Positions 1 through 6,352 of a stretch of 32,678 nt of DNA are shown here, in pieces. A model generated the notes under the pieces. The model was not told the DNA's origin. It searched no databases and worked only from the letters and a program-made list of their open reading frames with translations. Made by a program: the position numbers and the translations under genes. The stretch's first letter is position 1; each line of letters starts with the position of its first letter. Origin of the DNA: an uncultured Bacillota bacterium (GTDB taxonomy: Bacteria > Bacillota > Clostridia > Christensenellales > Borkfalkiaceae); NCBI GenBank assembly GCA_949283775.1, contig CASDTU010000064.1, positions 1 to 32,678 on the forward strand, in the 5' to 3' direction.

Positions 1-43
1 GAGAAAAATACTGTAAAAGGATCTATCTTATCCTAAAAAATAA

Positions 44-72
44 TTGACAAATTTTGATAGGCTTAGTATAAT
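44..72 (+). promoter_or_regulatory. Sigma-A type promoter of the leader RNA / polyamine operon
   Basis: A perfect -35 box TTGACA lies at 44-49 and a perfect -10 box TATAAT at 67-72, with a 17-base spacer. Transcription should start near 79-80. It is the only strong promoter I see upstream of the gene at 531, but the terminator at 427-462 lies in between. Confidence 0.85.
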
Positions 73-79
73 GCAAAGG

Positions 80-462
80 AATGGATAACTTCTAAGCATT
101 AGAGTCTTCCAAGCAATTATTGGGACCACTTTTTTAAAAAAAAGTTGAGGCCATACGGACAGCCGGGTCCACTGCCGATCGGCGGTTTTCCGCCTTATTG
201 ATTGAGTTAAAAGCTCAAATTTTATAAGTTGGTTACTTTATAACCGAAATGCGTTGTATACGCAAACTTGTGAAACGGTCAATAAGAGTAGTAAAAGTTG
301 TTGCTATATAGACTCTGTATGCCAAGCCAATTTTGCCGGAAGGACAATTCGGCAATTCGACGATCAGACATAGAAGTTTTCCTGTCCGCAGTATGCCGGA
401 AAAGGGGAATATGTTTTGAAAGCGGCCGCGCAAGTTGTGTAATTACAGCTTGCGCGTTTTTT
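80..462 (+). ncRNA. Structured, terminated leader or small RNA upstream of speA (raiA-motif candidate)
   Basis: About 380 nt lie between the consensus promoter and an intrinsic terminator, with no convincing gene inside. By eye it folds into a multi-branched structure. GGC/ATAC at 149-156 pairs with GTATGCC at 317-323, with C152 bulged. GGAC 157-160 pairs with GTCC 167-170. GGCGG 181-185 pairs with CCGCC 190-194. TTATTGA 195-201 pairs with TCAATAA 279-285 and encloses hairpins at 202-218, 231-245 and 251-263. A further hairpin pairs TTGCCG 333-338 with CGGCAA 350-355. The size and branched form resemble the raiA-motif RNA of Firmicutes, but I cannot confirm this without a covariance search. 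It could instead be a cis-regulatory leader for the polyamine operon. I found no match by eye to the SAM, THF, glycine or c-di-GMP riboswitches. The RNA limits are inferred; the helices are visible in the sequence. Confidence 0.65.
427..462 (+). terminator. Intrinsic terminator between leader RNA and speA
   Basis: CGCGCAAG at 427-434 pairs perfectly with CTTGCGCG at 449-456. The stem extends inward by four more pairs (TTGT/ACAG, one of them G-T) and six T residues follow at 457-462. It lies 69 bases before the speA start, and no clear second promoter follows it. The operon is therefore likely transcribed by read-through or regulated antitermination. Confidence 0.9.
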
Positions 463-530
463 ATTGCAAGCGAAAGAGCCGCAGGGATCGGACAGACTTG
501 CGGCAGAGCATGGAATGAGGAAGGAAAAAA

Positions 531-1988
531 GTGGAAAACAAAGGAAAGCTGGATCAAAACAGGGCGCCTATTTATGAAGCGTTGGAAATGTTTCGGGATA
601 TGCGCGTGGTACCGTTCGACGTGCCGGGACACAAGCACGGCAGGGGCAATCCCGAACTGACGGCATTTTTGGGGGAACGCTGCGTAAGCATCGACGTGAA
701 CAGCATGAAACCGCTGGACAATCTTTGCCATCCCGTTTCGGTCATCCGTGAGGCGGAAGACTTGGCCGCCGAAGCGTTTGGGGCGGCGCATTCTTTTTTA
801 ATGGTAGGCGGCACGACGAGCGCGGTACAGAGCATGGTTCTGTCCGTCTGTAAACGGGGGGATAAAATCATTCTGCCGCGCAACGTGCATCGCAGCGTCA
901 TCAACGCGCTCGTCTTGTGCGGCGCGATCCCCGTCTATGTGAATCCGGAAGTTGATGTCAATCTCGGAATTTCGCTGGGAATGAAGCGCGATCAGGTAGC
1001 GAAAGCCATTTCGGAAAATCCGGACGCGGTAGCGGTTTTGGTAAACAATCCGACCTATTATGGTATTTGCAGCGATTTGAAAGCGATCGTGGATATGGCG
1101 CACAAGGCGGGAATGTACTGCCTTGCGGACGAAGCGCACGGAACGCACTTTTATTTCGGGGAGGATCTTCCAATATCCGCAATGGCGGCCGGGGCGGATA
1201 TGGCGGCGGTGTCCATGCATAAGAGCGGCGGAAGTTTGACTCAGTCCAGCCTGCTTTTGACGGGGGCAAATATCAATGAGGGGCACGTTCGGCAGATCAT
1301 CAATCTTACGCAGACGACGTCGGGCAGTTATCTTCTTATGTCGAGTCTCGATATCAGCCGCAGGAACTTGGCGCTGAAAGGAAAAAAGATCTTTGCGAAA
1401 GTCATTGCAATGGCGGATTACGCGCGGGAAGAGATCAACGCGATCGGGGGATATTACGCTTTCGGACGGGAGCTGATCAACCGCGACTCGGTTTATGATT
1501 TTGACAGTACGAAATTGAGCGTCCACACCCGCGATATCGGGCTTGCCGGTATCGAAGTGTACGATCTTCTGCGTGACGAATACGATATTCAGATCGAGTT
1601 CGGCGATATCGGAAATATCCTCGCCTATCTTTCCATCGGCGATCGGATGCAGGAGCTGGAACGGCTGGTCAGCGCGCTTGCGGAGATCCGCCGCAGGTAT
1701 CAAAAAGACACCGCCGGCCTTTTAAGCCAGGAATATCTGGCGCCGGAAGTGGTGATCAGTCCGCAGGAAGCCTTTTATGCGAACAAAAAAAGCATCCCGA
1801 TCCATGCGAGCGAGGGGTACGTTTGCAGTGAGTTTATCATGTGCTATCCGCCGGGAATTCCGATCCTGGCGCCGGGCGAGCGGATCACGAAAGACATTAT
1901 CCAGTATATCGAATATGCCAAAGCCAAGGGCTGTTCCATGACGGGACCGGAAGATCCCGAAATCGAAAACGTCAACGTGTTGGCGTAG
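531..1988 (+). CDS. speA: Arginine decarboxylase (Orn/Lys/Arg decarboxylase, SpeA type)
   Basis: PLP-dependent decarboxylase of the aspartate-aminotransferase-fold Orn/Lys/Arg family, predicted to convert arginine to agmatine in the cytoplasm. The 485-residue length is close to Bacillus SpeA. The N-terminus carries the family block FDVPGHKHGRG near residues 26-36. The cofactor lysine is K231 in SMHKSGGSLTQSS, and DEAHGTH lies just upstream. Arginine is preferred over lysine or ornithine because an agmatinase-family gene lies two genes downstream. The start is GTG at 531, chosen because GAGGAAGG at 517-524 sits six bases upstream; the next ATG codons have no comparable site. It is the first gene of a tight five-gene polyamine operon, and SpeE begins 12 bases after its stop. 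Its expression should depend on passing the terminator at 427-462. Substrate is inferred from family and context. Confidence 0.93.
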   Translation: MENKGKLDQNRAPIYEALEMFRDMRVVPFDVPGHKHGRGNPELTAFLGERCVSIDVNSMKPLDNLCHPVSVIREAEDLAAEAFGAAHSFLMVGGTTSAVQSMVLSVCKRGDKIILPRNVHRSVINALVLCGAIPVYVNPEVDVNLGISLGMKRDQVAKAISENPDAVAVLVNNPTYYGICSDLKAIVDMAHKAGMYCLADEAHGTHFYFGEDLPISAMAAGADMAAVSMHKSGGSLTQSSLLLTGANINEGHVRQIINLTQTTSGSYLLMSSLDISRRNLALKGKKIFAKVIAMADYAREEINAIGGYYAFGRELINRDSVYDFDSTKLSVHTRDIGLAGIEVYDLLRDEYDIQIEFGDIGNILAYLSIGDRMQELERLVSALAEIRRRYQKDTAGLLSQEYLAPEVVISPQEAFYANKKSIPIHASEGYVCSEFIMCYPPGIPILAPGERITKDIIQYIEYAKAKGCSMTGPEDPEIENVNVLA

Positions 1989-2000
1989 GAGGAAGTAGAA

Positions 2001-2852
2001 ATGGAATTATGGTTCAGTGAATTTCATGCGCCGGACGTAAAACACAGCATCCGCGTGAACCGGCATCTGTATTCGCAGAGAAGCGAATATCAGCAGATCG
2101 ACGTGTTTGAAACGCCCGAATTCGGTAGAGTGCTCACCCTCGACGGAAACGTTCTTTTGACCGAGCGGGACGAATTTATATACGACGAAATGATCACGCA
2201 CGTTCCGATGTCGGTGCATCCCTGTGTGCGCGATGTCTTAGTGATCGGCGCGGGGGACGGCGGCGTCGTGCGGGAACTGACGCGCTATGCCTGCGTGGAA
2301 AAGATCGATCTCGTGGAAATGGATCCGCAGGTCGTGGAAGTCTGCCGCACTTATCTTCCGGAAAATGCCTGCAAGCTGGACGATGCGCGCGTGCACATTT
2401 ATTACGACAACGCTTTGCGGTTTTTGCGGCGGTGTACGGCAAATTATGACCTTATTATCGTGGATTCCATCGATCCGTTCGGGCCTTCGGAAGGCTATTT
2501 TACCCGCGAATTTTACGGGATCTGTTACAACGCACTCCGCGAGGACGGCATCATGGTCAATCAGCAGGGAAGCCCCTTTTATAAACATGATGCGGACGTC
2601 ATGCGGCGCAGCCATCATAAAATCGTAAACACCTTCCCGATCAGCCGCGTGTACCAGGCACACATTCCGACCTATGCGGCCGGATATTGGCTGTTTGGGT
2701 TTGCAAGTAAAAAATATCATCCGATCGCTGATTTTCAGGCGGAAAAATGGAAGAGTTTGAATTTGGAAACAAACTATTATACAACAAAATTGCATATAGG
2801 TTCCTTTTATCTGCCCGCTTTTTTGGAAAAGATGCTCAAAGAGGTCGAGTAA
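2001..2852 (+). CDS. speE: Polyamine aminopropyltransferase (spermidine synthase)
   Basis: The SpeE family moves an aminopropyl group from decarboxylated S-adenosylmethionine to putrescine, or to agmatine in some members. The 283-residue protein has the Rossmann nucleotide motif GAGDGG at 83-88, the acidic motif VEMDPQ near 105-110 and the active-site block VDSIDPFGP containing D155 and D158. Its C-terminus (ETNYYTTKLHIGSFYLP) is typical of the Bacillus enzyme. An AGGAGG site at 1987-1992 overlaps the speA stop and supports the ATG at 2001. The odd point is that no S-adenosylmethionine decarboxylase (SpeD) gene is in this window, although the next genes encode a route that does not need it. 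Whether the acceptor is putrescine or agmatine cannot be told from the sequence. Confidence 0.93.
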   Translation: MELWFSEFHAPDVKHSIRVNRHLYSQRSEYQQIDVFETPEFGRVLTLDGNVLLTERDEFIYDEMITHVPMSVHPCVRDVLVIGAGDGGVVRELTRYACVEKIDLVEMDPQVVEVCRTYLPENACKLDDARVHIYYDNALRFLRRCTANYDLIIVDSIDPFGPSEGYFTREFYGICYNALREDGIMVNQQGSPFYKHDADVMRRSHHKIVNTFPISRVYQAHIPTYAAGYWLFGFASKKYHPIADFQAEKWKSLNLETNYYTTKLHIGSFYLPAFLEKMLKEVE

Positions 2853-2853
2853 A

Positions 2854-3708
2854 ATGAAACAGAACATAGAGACATTTATCGGTTGCGGCGCGGAATATAG
2901 AGAAGCAAAGATTGTTTTATTCGGAGCGCCGTTCGATTCGACGACGAGTTTTCGCCCGGGGGCGAGGTTCGGCTCTTCGGCGATCCGACACGAGAGTTTT
3001 GGTTTGGAAACGTACAGCTTGTATCAAGATAAAGATTTGAGCGAATGCCGAATCTTTGACAGCGGGGATTTGGAGCTTTGTTTCGGCGATCCGACGCTCG
3101 CGCTTTCCGCCATCGAAAAGCATACGGCGAAAATTATAAAAGACGGAAAACTCCCCTTTTTGATAGGAGGGGAGCATTTGGTAACGCTCGGTGCGGTTCG
3201 CGCGGCATTCAAAAAATATCCCGATTTGCAAATCGTGCATTTTGATGCGCACGCGGATCTGCGCGAGAAGTATCTCGGCGCAAGATACAGCCATGCGTGC
3301 GTATTGCGAAGGTGCCATGATTTGCTGGGGGACGGAAAGATCCATCAATTTTGTATCCGCAGCGGAGAGCGGGAAGAGTTTGCGTTTGCAAAGGCGCATA
3401 CAAACCTGCACCCGTTTGATTTCAGCGGGCTGGAAGAGACCGTCGCCGCGCTTGCGCAAAGCGGCGCTCCCGTCTATGTGACCGTAGATCTGGATTGCCT
3501 TGATCCGTCTGTGTTTCCGGGAACGGGTACACCCGAAGCGGGAGGAGTCAGCTTTTTGCAGCTTCTTTCGGCGCTGCGCAGCGTGTGCAGTTTAAACGTG
3601 GTCGGCGCGGACGTGAACGAGCTCGCGCCGATGCTGGATAGCAGCGGCGCTTCTACGGCGACGGCTTGTAAAGTCGTGCGGGAATTTTTATTGGCATTAT
3701 ATCATTGA
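2854..3708 (+). CDS. speB: Agmatinase-family ureohydrolase
   Basis: Manganese ureohydrolase of the arginase/agmatinase family, 284 residues. It should remove urea from agmatine to give putrescine, or from aminopropylagmatine to give spermidine. All metal-ligand positions are present: H108 in GGEH, D131, H133 and D135 in DAHAD, and D212 and D214 in DLDCLDP. This is the same spacing as E. coli SpeB. It starts one base after the speE stop, with GAGGTCGAG as a weak ribosome binding site inside the end of speE, so it is probably translationally coupled. The gene order (decarboxylase, aminopropyltransferase, ureohydrolase, dehydrogenase, decarboxylase) leaves two possible substrates, so the agmatinase name is a family-level call. 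Confidence 0.92.
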   Translation: MKQNIETFIGCGAEYREAKIVLFGAPFDSTTSFRPGARFGSSAIRHESFGLETYSLYQDKDLSECRIFDSGDLELCFGDPTLALSAIEKHTAKIIKDGKLPFLIGGEHLVTLGAVRAAFKKYPDLQIVHFDAHADLREKYLGARYSHACVLRRCHDLLGDGKIHQFCIRSGEREEFAFAKAHTNLHPFDFSGLEETVAALAQSGAPVYVTVDLDCLDPSVFPGTGTPEAGGVSFLQLLSALRSVCSLNVVGADVNELAPMLDSSGASTATACKVVREFLLALYH

Positions 3709-3725
3709 AAACGGAGGACAAAGAA

Positions 3726-4984
<1,259 letters not shown>

Positions 4985-4985
<1 letters not shown>

Positions 4986-6352
4986 TGAAAGCCTGCTCCA
5001 TCGATTCGCCCGTTTTCCGTGCGCTGGGGAGGCAGGATCCGAAGGCCGTTTTTGGAGATCTTCCGACGCCCTGTTACGTCATTGACGAAGGGCAGCTGAT
5101 CAAAAACTGCGAAATTCTTTCCAAAGTCATGCGGGATACGGGCTGTAAAATATTGCTGGCGCAAAAAGCGTTTTCCAATTTCGCCTTTTATAAACAGATC
5201 GGGAACTACCTGAGCGGTACGGAGGCGAGCGGCTTATTTGAAGCGCGCCTCGGCAAAGAGGAAATGCCCGATAAAGAAGTGCATGTGTTCAGCGCCGCAT
5301 ATAAGGAAGAAGAATTTGAGAAGATCCTGCTCTACGCCGATCATATCGTCTTTAATTCGCCTTCGCAACTGAAAAAGTATGTCCGCCGCGCGAAAGACGC
5401 GGGCAAGAGTATCGGGCTTCGGATCAATCCGGAGCACTCCACGCAGGAAGGGCATGCAATATATGACCCGTGCGCGAAGGGGAGCAGGCTGGGCACGACG
5501 CGCGATGTCTGGGATAAGCAGATGACGAAAGAGCTTATCGATTGCCTGGACGGCTTGCATTTTCATACCCTCTGCGAGCAGAATGCGGACGCACTTGCCG
5601 CAACGCTGTATGCGGCGGAGGAAAAGTTCGGCGACGTGCTTTGTCGCATGAAATGGCTGAACATGGGCGGCGGACACCATATCACAAAAGAGGGATATGA
5701 CATTCCTTTGCTCGAAGAAACCGTTCGGTATGCGCAAAAAAAGTGGAACGTACAGGTATATTTGGAACCGGGAGAAGCGGTTGCCCTCAATGCAGGATTT
5801 CTTTTGACCCGCGTGCTGGATATCGTGGAAAACGGCGGCGCGCAAATTGCTGTTTTGGATGCGAGCGCCGCCTGTCATATGCCGGACGTGATCGAAATGC
5901 CGTATACGCCGCCGCTGCTCGATCCTTTTGCCGGGCGGAAAAACGATTGCGCCGGCGGAAAGCAAAATGCGGAATGTGGCGCCGCGGAATACGCTGAAAG
6001 CGGGGCAGAGGAGAAGATCGGCGCGGCTGCAAACGATACGGCATCGGAGAAGATCGGCGCGGCGGAAAGCGGCAAGGCGGAAGAAAAACACGAGAAGCGC
6101 GGCGACGGATGCGTTTATTCCTTTGGCGGGCCGACCTGCCTTTCGGGCGACATGATCGGATCGTATGTGCTGCGAGGACAGCTCTGTGTGGGCGATCTTC
6201 TGGTGTTTGGCGATATGGCGATTTATACGACCTGTAAAAACAACACCTTCAACGGAATGCCGCTGCCTAATATCTATATGCGCGGCAAAGACGGACAAAT
6301 TTCTCTGTTAAAGCGATTCGGCTACGAGGATTTTAAAAACAGATTGGGCTGA
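4985..6352 (+). CDS. nspC: Carboxynorspermidine decarboxylase with an Ala/Glu-rich insertion
   Basis: PLP-dependent decarboxylase of the alanine-racemase-fold family. It should remove CO2 from carboxy(nor)spermidine or a similar carboxylated triamine, giving the polyamine. Visible motifs are TPCYVIDE at the N-terminus, the cofactor lysine K61 in LLAQKAFSNF, HFHTLCEQ, LNMGGGHH and, near the C-terminus, SFGGPTCLSGD. The protein has 455 residues, about 70-80 more than usual for NspC. Most of the excess is a low-complexity Ala/Gly/Glu/Lys-rich stretch at about residues 318-373, between the PDVIEMPY and GGPTCLSGD blocks. It contains a 12-residue direct repeat (EKIGAA...). The insertion keeps the frame and all core motifs flank it, so the enzyme is probably intact with an extended loop. 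The start overlaps the previous stop (TGATG at 4983-4987). This is the last gene before the terminator at 6374. Confidence 0.9.
6011..6063 (+). repeat. 36-bp-period direct repeat inside nspC
   Basis: A 17-base unit beginning GAGAAGATCGG occurs at 6011-6027 and again at 6047-6063. The 36-base period equals 12 codons. It encodes the two EKIGAA segments of the low-complexity insertion and suggests growth by in-frame duplication. Confidence 0.8.

Follow-up and report, generated by a model that had tools for sequence, protein, structure and literature searches.

The question raised by this locus is whether the structured, terminated RNA that separates a promoter from a polyamine operon is an independent small RNA or a leader controlling the genes behind it. 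The locus opens the window analysed here, that is, the whole stretch of 32,678 nucleotides (contig CASDTU010000064.1, positions 1-32,678, forward strand; assembly GCA_949283775.1) from an uncultured Bacillota bacterium (Clostridia; Christensenellales; Borkfalkiaceae). Its signals and genes are arranged as follows:

44-72, + strand: sigma-70-type promoter, TTGACA-17-TATAAT, 12/12 match to the consensus
427-462, + strand: intrinsic terminator, 13-bp stem (427-456) followed by T6 (457-462), -20.5 kcal/mol
531-1988, + strand: speA-type Orn/Lys/Arg decarboxylase gene, first after the leader (PF01276, E 2.8e-71)
2001-2852, + strand: speE, spermidine synthase (TIGR00417, above cut-off)
2854-3708, + strand: speB, agmatinase (TIGR01230, above cut-off)
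3705-4985, + strand: CANSDH, carboxynorspermidine synthase homologue (NF043000, E 5.7e-124, below the curated cut-off)
4985-6352, + strand: nspC, carboxynorspermidine decarboxylase (TIGR01047, above cut-off)

The perfect promoter that a preliminary description of this DNA had placed at 44-72 is indeed present, and the decarboxylase gene follows the terminated RNA directly, as had been proposed. This promoter is the only site found when both strands of 1-3000 are scanned for the sigma-70 consensus, shuffled sequence giving on average 3.5 sites with 9/12 or better in the same scan. From 462 to speA the scan shows no further promoter, so that the claimed absence of one holds within the reach of a consensus scan. 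Judging from the promoter position, transcription would start at about 79. The RNA from 80 to 462 folds at -121.8 kcal/mol (z = -4.95), none of 100 shuffles being equally stable. The terminator lies where it had been described, with a stem of 13 bp instead of the 12 bp first counted, and none of 200 shuffles is as stable. Further downstream, speE and the CANSDH/nspC route stand in one row (2001-6352), with no speD among the five genes examined, and the nspC frame includes a low-complexity stretch at about residues 315-375, containing EKIGAA twice, the NCBIfam profile matching this frame in two stretches.

To which known RNA, if any, does this leader belong? When 1-600 is searched by cmscan against the whole of Rfam (4227 families) with E up to 10, SpF59_sRNA (RF02440) alone matches, over 123-178 (56 nt) and all 54 model positions, with 71.3 bits, above the gathering cut-off of 37.2 by which membership of this family is decided. 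The label of the family, "ldcC RNA", names a decarboxylase gene, as is found at the window. The family is, however, restricted to the 5' domain and typed as a Streptococcus sRNA (Gene; sRNA), whereas the conserved RNA described below is about 200 nt long; the Rfam model is devoid of the 3' core, pseudoknot, terminator and antiterminator, all four of which are present in the window RNA. The preliminary description had counted a significant Rfam match to an unrelated RNA as evidence against a new regulatory leader; the match is formally significant, but SpF59 is a piece of the same RNA rather than an unrelated one.

Its best guess, the raiA motif, is not supported, since raiA (RF03072) gives no match in 1-600 at E up to 10. 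The raiA motif/ModT is likewise of about 200 nt (model of 209 positions); it is a structured RNA found in Bacillota, described as noncoding, very abundant and stable (PMC11706538). A search of the whole genome with the raiA model also gave nothing, which is a weak test as control genomes gave nothing either. 6S RNA is rejected, no 6S model matching 1-600 at E up to 10, and so is a SAM-family identity at the same threshold, with the reservation that the Rfam SAM-I model may or may not detect the spermidine variant discussed below.

The Rfam family leads to the pneumococcus, where we take SP0916 to be a lysine/arginine decarboxylase gene. The pneumococcal RNA F59/srn235/SN20 lies between SP0915 and SP0916, in sense to SP0916 (PMC3395615), and carries the entry "Lung" in a table on sRNAs and virulence (PMC4387999). 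In 2025 it was reported as M7, a 327-nt interval with synteny in 385 genomes, and counted among candidate sRNAs after removal of cis-regulators from the list (PMC12323649). This pneumococcal RNA is tied to the window RNA through the Rfam family name alone. No description of this RNA as a riboswitch was found in the open PMC literature, subscription papers and bioRxiv lying outside this search.

Homologues were gathered by RNA sequence alone, no gene being used. Contigs of named genomes were scanned with a pattern of 21 specified bases from the 5' domain, giving at least 119 stretches; at least 157 loci had enough flank, and at least 123 were left after removal of near-identical ones, all these counts being lower bounds in a set that leans to exact 5'-domain matches. 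Among the matches listed, the sources are Paenibacillus, Bacillus, Neobacillus, Lactococcus, Blautia, Faecalibacterium, Acidaminococcus, Phascolarctobacterium and many Clostridia metagenome-assembled genomes (MAGs). Single members were also found on contigs labelled as other phyla, in a Spirochaetes MAG (L093, with speA-speE-speB-CANSDH downstream) and a Synergistaceae MAG (L126), a placement that could be due to horizontal transfer or MAG mislabelling. A promoter match of at least 10/12 is present in 94 of 115 homologues, in the region 180-50 nt upstream of the 5'-domain motif, as compared to 4 of 115 after one mononucleotide shuffle each.

The distribution is patchy. RF02440 matches 18 of the 398 genomes of a phylum sample and 41 of the 391 genomes of a class sample, one of these 41 below the family cut-off; within the class sample, it is found in 2 of 13 other genomes of the window's order and in none of the five other genomes of its family. 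The window's own genome has a single copy of the RNA. A covariance model built for the core from 44 sequences (174 positions; alignment A2, which holds 44 of 91 loci) matches 23 of the 398 phylum-sample genomes, i.e., all 18 Rfam-positive ones and five more. The exact 3' core occurs in 15 of the 391 class-sample genomes, 13 of them already known from their Rfam match and two without such a match (loci L200 and L205).

The RNA shared by these homologues is about 200 nt long and corresponds to about 113-316 in the window; its elements, with a possible outer strand 5' of them, are the following:

101-106, + strand: AGAGUC, possible 5' strand of an outer P1 that could pair with 311-316 (weak)
113-120, + strand: P1 5' strand, partner 297-304 within the 3' hairpin loop (own-versus-swapped duplex energies)
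123-170, + strand: 5' domain P2-P3-P4, the part modelled in Rfam as SpF59 (match 123-178; two-sided changes in P2, P3 and P4)
181-194, + strand: P5 hairpin, two-sided changes in all 5 pairs
195-285, + strand: P6 (195-202/278-285), nearly invariant, enclosing P7-P10
204-216, + strand: P7, two-sided changes
221-274, + strand: P8 (221-229/266-274), nearly invariant
231-245, + strand: P9, two-sided changes
250-264, + strand: P10, two-sided changes
267-316, + strand: 3' core CUUGUGAAACGGUCAAUAAGAGUAGUAAAAG..UUGCUAUAUAGACUCU, with hairpin 286-289/312-315, strongly conserved

The alignment consensus ends at about GACUCUGA (316-318), and nothing is kept further 3'. The stem-loops within 317-426 show no conservation in the homologue alignment, and were dropped from the model of the conserved RNA because the consensus holds none of them. 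Of the branched RNA with at least six helices initially described at 149-355, the branching is retained in the homologues, but the extent is not.

Covariation in homologues, a check suggested by the preliminary description and carried out here, gives a positive answer. In 65 aligned homologues, two-sided changes are seen at 25 pairs, spread over 8 of the 11 helices (P1 to P5, P7, P9 and P10). Over the 11 helices and their 57 pairs, 93.6% of cells are paired, versus 31.7-43.0% with slid partners, a comparison that favours the counted structure, as it had been derived with RNAalifold and from the first sequence; none of 500 covariation shuffles matches any of five measures. Hardly any variation is present in P6, P8 and the 3' hairpin AGAGU/ACUCU, which have zero two-sided changes in the 65-sequence alignment, and P10 aligns poorly (pairing in 67% of cells). 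This alignment (A1) holds 65 of the 94 length-eligible loci, the potA-type loci being mostly absent. Inspection by eye shows UGAGC/GCUCA in place of AGAGU/ACUCU, and one P6 A-U pair changed to G-C, in L126 and L188, as well as P4 GGC/GCC swapped for GCC/GGC in L038, L041 and L045. The segment 195-285 folds at z = -3.65.

P1 is a pseudoknot, because the 5' end of the RNA pairs inside the loop of the 3' hairpin. Its strands form a duplex of -6.0 kcal/mol with their own partners and of -3.81 kcal/mol with swapped ones (n = 100), a difference reached in 0 of 20,000 shuffles, which ignore ancestry; a segment 20 nt further upstream, taken as control, gives no pairing signal (n = 100). The outer P1 (101-106/311-316), which comes from RNAfold, was kept only as a weak element, since AGAGT or GAGTC is present at its position in just 53 of 100 homologues, and AGAGU at 285-289 is the more likely partner of the conserved ACUCU.

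The 3' core is made of two blocks separated by a short variable stretch. The first, CUUGUGAAACGGUCAAUAAGAGUAGUAAAAG, is found with at most 8 edits in 117 of the 123 non-redundant loci, and the second, UUGCUAUAUAGACUCU, with at most 4 edits in 100 of those 117; the six loci without a recognisable 3' core are L060, L087, L093, L109, L112 and L117. Conversely, three members keep the 3' core, while their 5' domain is missing or not recognisable, as seen by eye. P2-P4 are absent from L200, where P1 and P5-P10 seem intact (about 1400-1545); P2-P7 are unrecognisable in L205, where the 3' core is kept (about 1300-1545); and P2-P7 are not seen in L189, where P1 and the 3' core are present (about 1600-1710). 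L189, L200 and L205 still precede speD, speA and potA, and are possible minimal aptamers. The 5' domain modelled in Rfam is thus dispensable in some members, since it is gone in L189 and L200 and unrecognisable in L205, and by this comparison the sensing core is probably the 3' half of the RNA.

Some members are altered in other ways. In L112, the RNA seems to be interrupted shortly after P7 by a sequence unrelated to it, which could be a mobile element that entered the leader, and L107 and L137 have inserts of more than 100 nt with inverted-repeat-like stretches in the P9/P10 region, the RNA being otherwise normal. In the window itself, the covariance model also matches weakly (20.8 bits) on the minus strand of 221-275, the reverse strand of P8-P10, for which palindromic hairpins are the most likely cause.

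The genes that follow the RNA are strikingly uniform. Among the matches listed, a first ORF is readable in 119 of the 123 non-redundant loci (four are without one), and it is speA, speD, potA or CANSDH in 115 of these 119: speA in 44, speD in 31, potA in 28 and CANSDH in 12. The first ORF is here the first one of at least 90 aa accepted by the script, so that short or overlapped genes may be skipped; gene clusters were obtained by single-linkage BLAST and named after one representative each, checked with NCBIfam and Pfam. L075 is counted as speA even though speA starts more than 1.1 kb downstream, and the potA-like gene of L120 scores below the curated potA cut-offs. The other four first ORFs are an ABC-transporter case (L105/L110, with an ABC permease, potB-like by eye, next in L110), a misread locus (L163, read in a wrong frame; its speA lies 1138 nt further on, in line with the speD-speA arrangement), a P-II gene and an M28 peptidase gene. 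L109 and L164 are accordingly the two loci in which the RNA stands before a gene for a P-II nitrogen regulator or for an M28 peptidase, neither of them known for polyamines.

The same association is observed outside this set. In the five genomes found by the covariance model only, which were not used in building it, the next gene is speA (two genomes) or speD (three genomes), and all 15 exact-3'-core loci of the class sample precede speA, speD, CANSDH or potA. The window's polyamine genes, when searched by tblastn, are always downstream and on the same strand in every locus with a match. Two copies of the RNA are found in one Lactococcus genome, the first preceding speA-speE and the other a potA-like gene. 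Spermidine can be made by SpeD/SpeE or, through a different route, by CANSDH/NspC, and it is imported by PotABCD. Because both spermidine routes and the importer carry the RNA, what is common to all four targets is the putrescine/spermidine pool.

How could the RNA control these genes? The 5' arm of the terminator is complementary to a strand of the conserved RNA itself:

259-270, + strand: antiterminator strand 1, UACGCAAACUUG, formed by the P10 3' and P8 3' strands, complementary to 431-441
431-441, + strand: antiterminator strand 2, CAAGUUGUGUA, the terminator 5' arm, complementary to 259-270

The duplex has 11 bp with one bulged A. In homologues, a terminator candidate was selected by script for 116 of 117 loci (none in L160), some of these picks being doubtful, and the antiterminator duplex reaches -8 kcal/mol or better in 106 of the 116, with both strands varying; the ten weaker ones could partly reflect doubtful terminator picks. 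Own pairs average -12.58 kcal/mol versus -9.50 for shuffled ones (n = 116), none of 20,000 shuffles being as low, whereas the 18 nt just downstream, used as control, carry no signal (own -3.59, shuffled -3.76 kcal/mol). As for P1, these shuffles ignore ancestry, a point that is answered, for the antiterminator only, by repeats on clustered loci: the signal holds with 64, 42, 26 and 20 representatives (85, 80, 75 and 70% identity), at 0/20,000 each. The own terminator arm is within the best 5% of arms in 21 of 116 loci and within the best 10% in 43; swapped partners pair well too (-9.50 on average), because most loci share a CUUG/CAAG core.

The terminator and antiterminator structures exclude each other through their shared arm (431-441), and the aptamer and the antiterminator are also mutually exclusive, because the antiterminator strand overlaps P8 and P10. 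Gene association, covariation and an antiterminator tracking the terminator strongly support the proposal, one of two made in the preliminary description, of a leader controlling polyamine genes through termination. As the 5' arm of the terminator pairs with the P10/P8 3' strand of the RNA itself, the RNA is, as far as sequence alone can show, almost certainly a cis-acting attenuator. It combines three of the properties looked for in a riboswitch, i.e., a conserved, covarying structured domain in the 5' leader, a consistent association with genes of one metabolite and an expression platform with mutually exclusive structures.

We therefore propose that the polyamine operon has this RNA as its 5' leader, and that the leader probably acts as an OFF riboswitch by premature transcription termination. 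The region from about 113 to 316 would fold as a pseudoknotted, multi-branched aptamer. Its ligand would hold P8 and P10 together and leave the arm 431-441 free, hairpin 427-456 would form, and transcription would stop at the U run. In the absence of ligand, 259-270 would pair with 431-441, the hairpin would be blocked and speA-speE-speB-CANSDH-nspC would be made. The OFF logic follows from the fact that whatever stabilises the aptamer frees the terminator; this direction, and a small molecule rather than a protein as the signal, are the most likely choices. In the window 80-444, nearest-neighbour energies computed without ligand are -106.1 kcal/mol for the aptamer fold and -97.4 kcal/mol for the antiterminator; the aptamer is thus favoured even in the ligand-free calculation, which goes the other way, and an ON switch is possible.

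Given a cis-acting attenuator, direct sensing of a polyamine by the predicted aptamer is quite probable. Spermidine in particular is our best guess, as the RNA is common to the two spermidine routes and the importer, and end-product repression, considered with general knowledge of these pathways, points to it as well; taken overall, this choice of ligand is only slightly more probable than the contrary.

The alternative that survives best is an attenuator run by a protein or another macromolecule, which would bind the conserved RNA and report the polyamine status. The long conserved sequence, rich in invariant A/U stretches, would suit a protein site too, and the antiterminator evidence is silent on what stabilises the aptamer. 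The RNA, however, spans distant lineages (Paenibacillus, Lactococcus, Clostridia, Spirochaetes- and Synergistaceae-labelled MAGs), and a regulator is the first downstream ORF, the only ORF considered in this count, in just one of 119 loci (the P-II gene of L109). Riboswitches usually combine a pseudoknotted, branched core and a terminator switch, as the window RNA would. A protein-run attenuator is regarded as unlikely.

Less likely still, the riboswitch would respond to a precursor or to a cofactor, namely arginine, lysine, ornithine, agmatine, SAM or decarboxylated SAM. This would agree with the use of arginine/lysine/ornithine and SAM by the speA and speD products. It would also agree with the known spermidine riboswitch being a SAM-I variant (PMC10853860). 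Precursors would nevertheless not be expected to shut the polyamine importer, nor SAM or decarboxylated SAM the CANSDH route, and no SAM riboswitch model of Rfam matches 1-600 at E up to 10. The idea of an independent trans-acting small RNA lying before polyamine genes by chance is the most improbable of all. In its favour are the RNA's own promoter and terminator and its filing as SpF59 in Rfam and as F59/srn235/M7 in the pneumococcal sRNA lists. Against it, the same four gene types come next in 115 of 119 loci, every polyamine gene matched by tblastn being on the strand of the RNA, and an antiterminator tracks each terminator, as expected of a cis regulator; a terminated leader would, moreover, itself resemble an sRNA in RNA-seq.

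With a polyamine riboswitch as the preferred reading, the closest functional counterpart is the validated spermidine riboswitch, a SAM-I variant (Salvail et al., 2023). It is associated with ldcC, speE and speB genes and is an off switch acting via premature termination; it thus does a similar job to the window leader but is a different RNA, and its authors state that further polyamine riboswitch classes must exist (PMC10853860). It is the single validated spermidine riboswitch class found in the open PMC literature. We consider it reasonably likely that the present RNA is a second, structurally unrelated class, unusually well conserved over about 200 nt, which would control import together with synthesis by either of the spermidine routes, is scattered among Bacillota (23 of 398 sampled genomes), was filed as an sRNA and has its sensing core in the 3' half, outside the Rfam model.

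If this is true, the selective binding by RNA of a highly charged and flexible ligand would be of structural interest. The filing as an sRNA could perhaps be due to accumulation of the terminated leader; a conserved pneumococcal "sRNA" listed with a lung phenotype would then become a cis-regulator, and this phenotype would have to be re-read. The same RNA would also explain how polyamine synthesis and uptake are balanced in a range of Bacillota, including Lactococcus, gut Clostridia and Paenibacillus.
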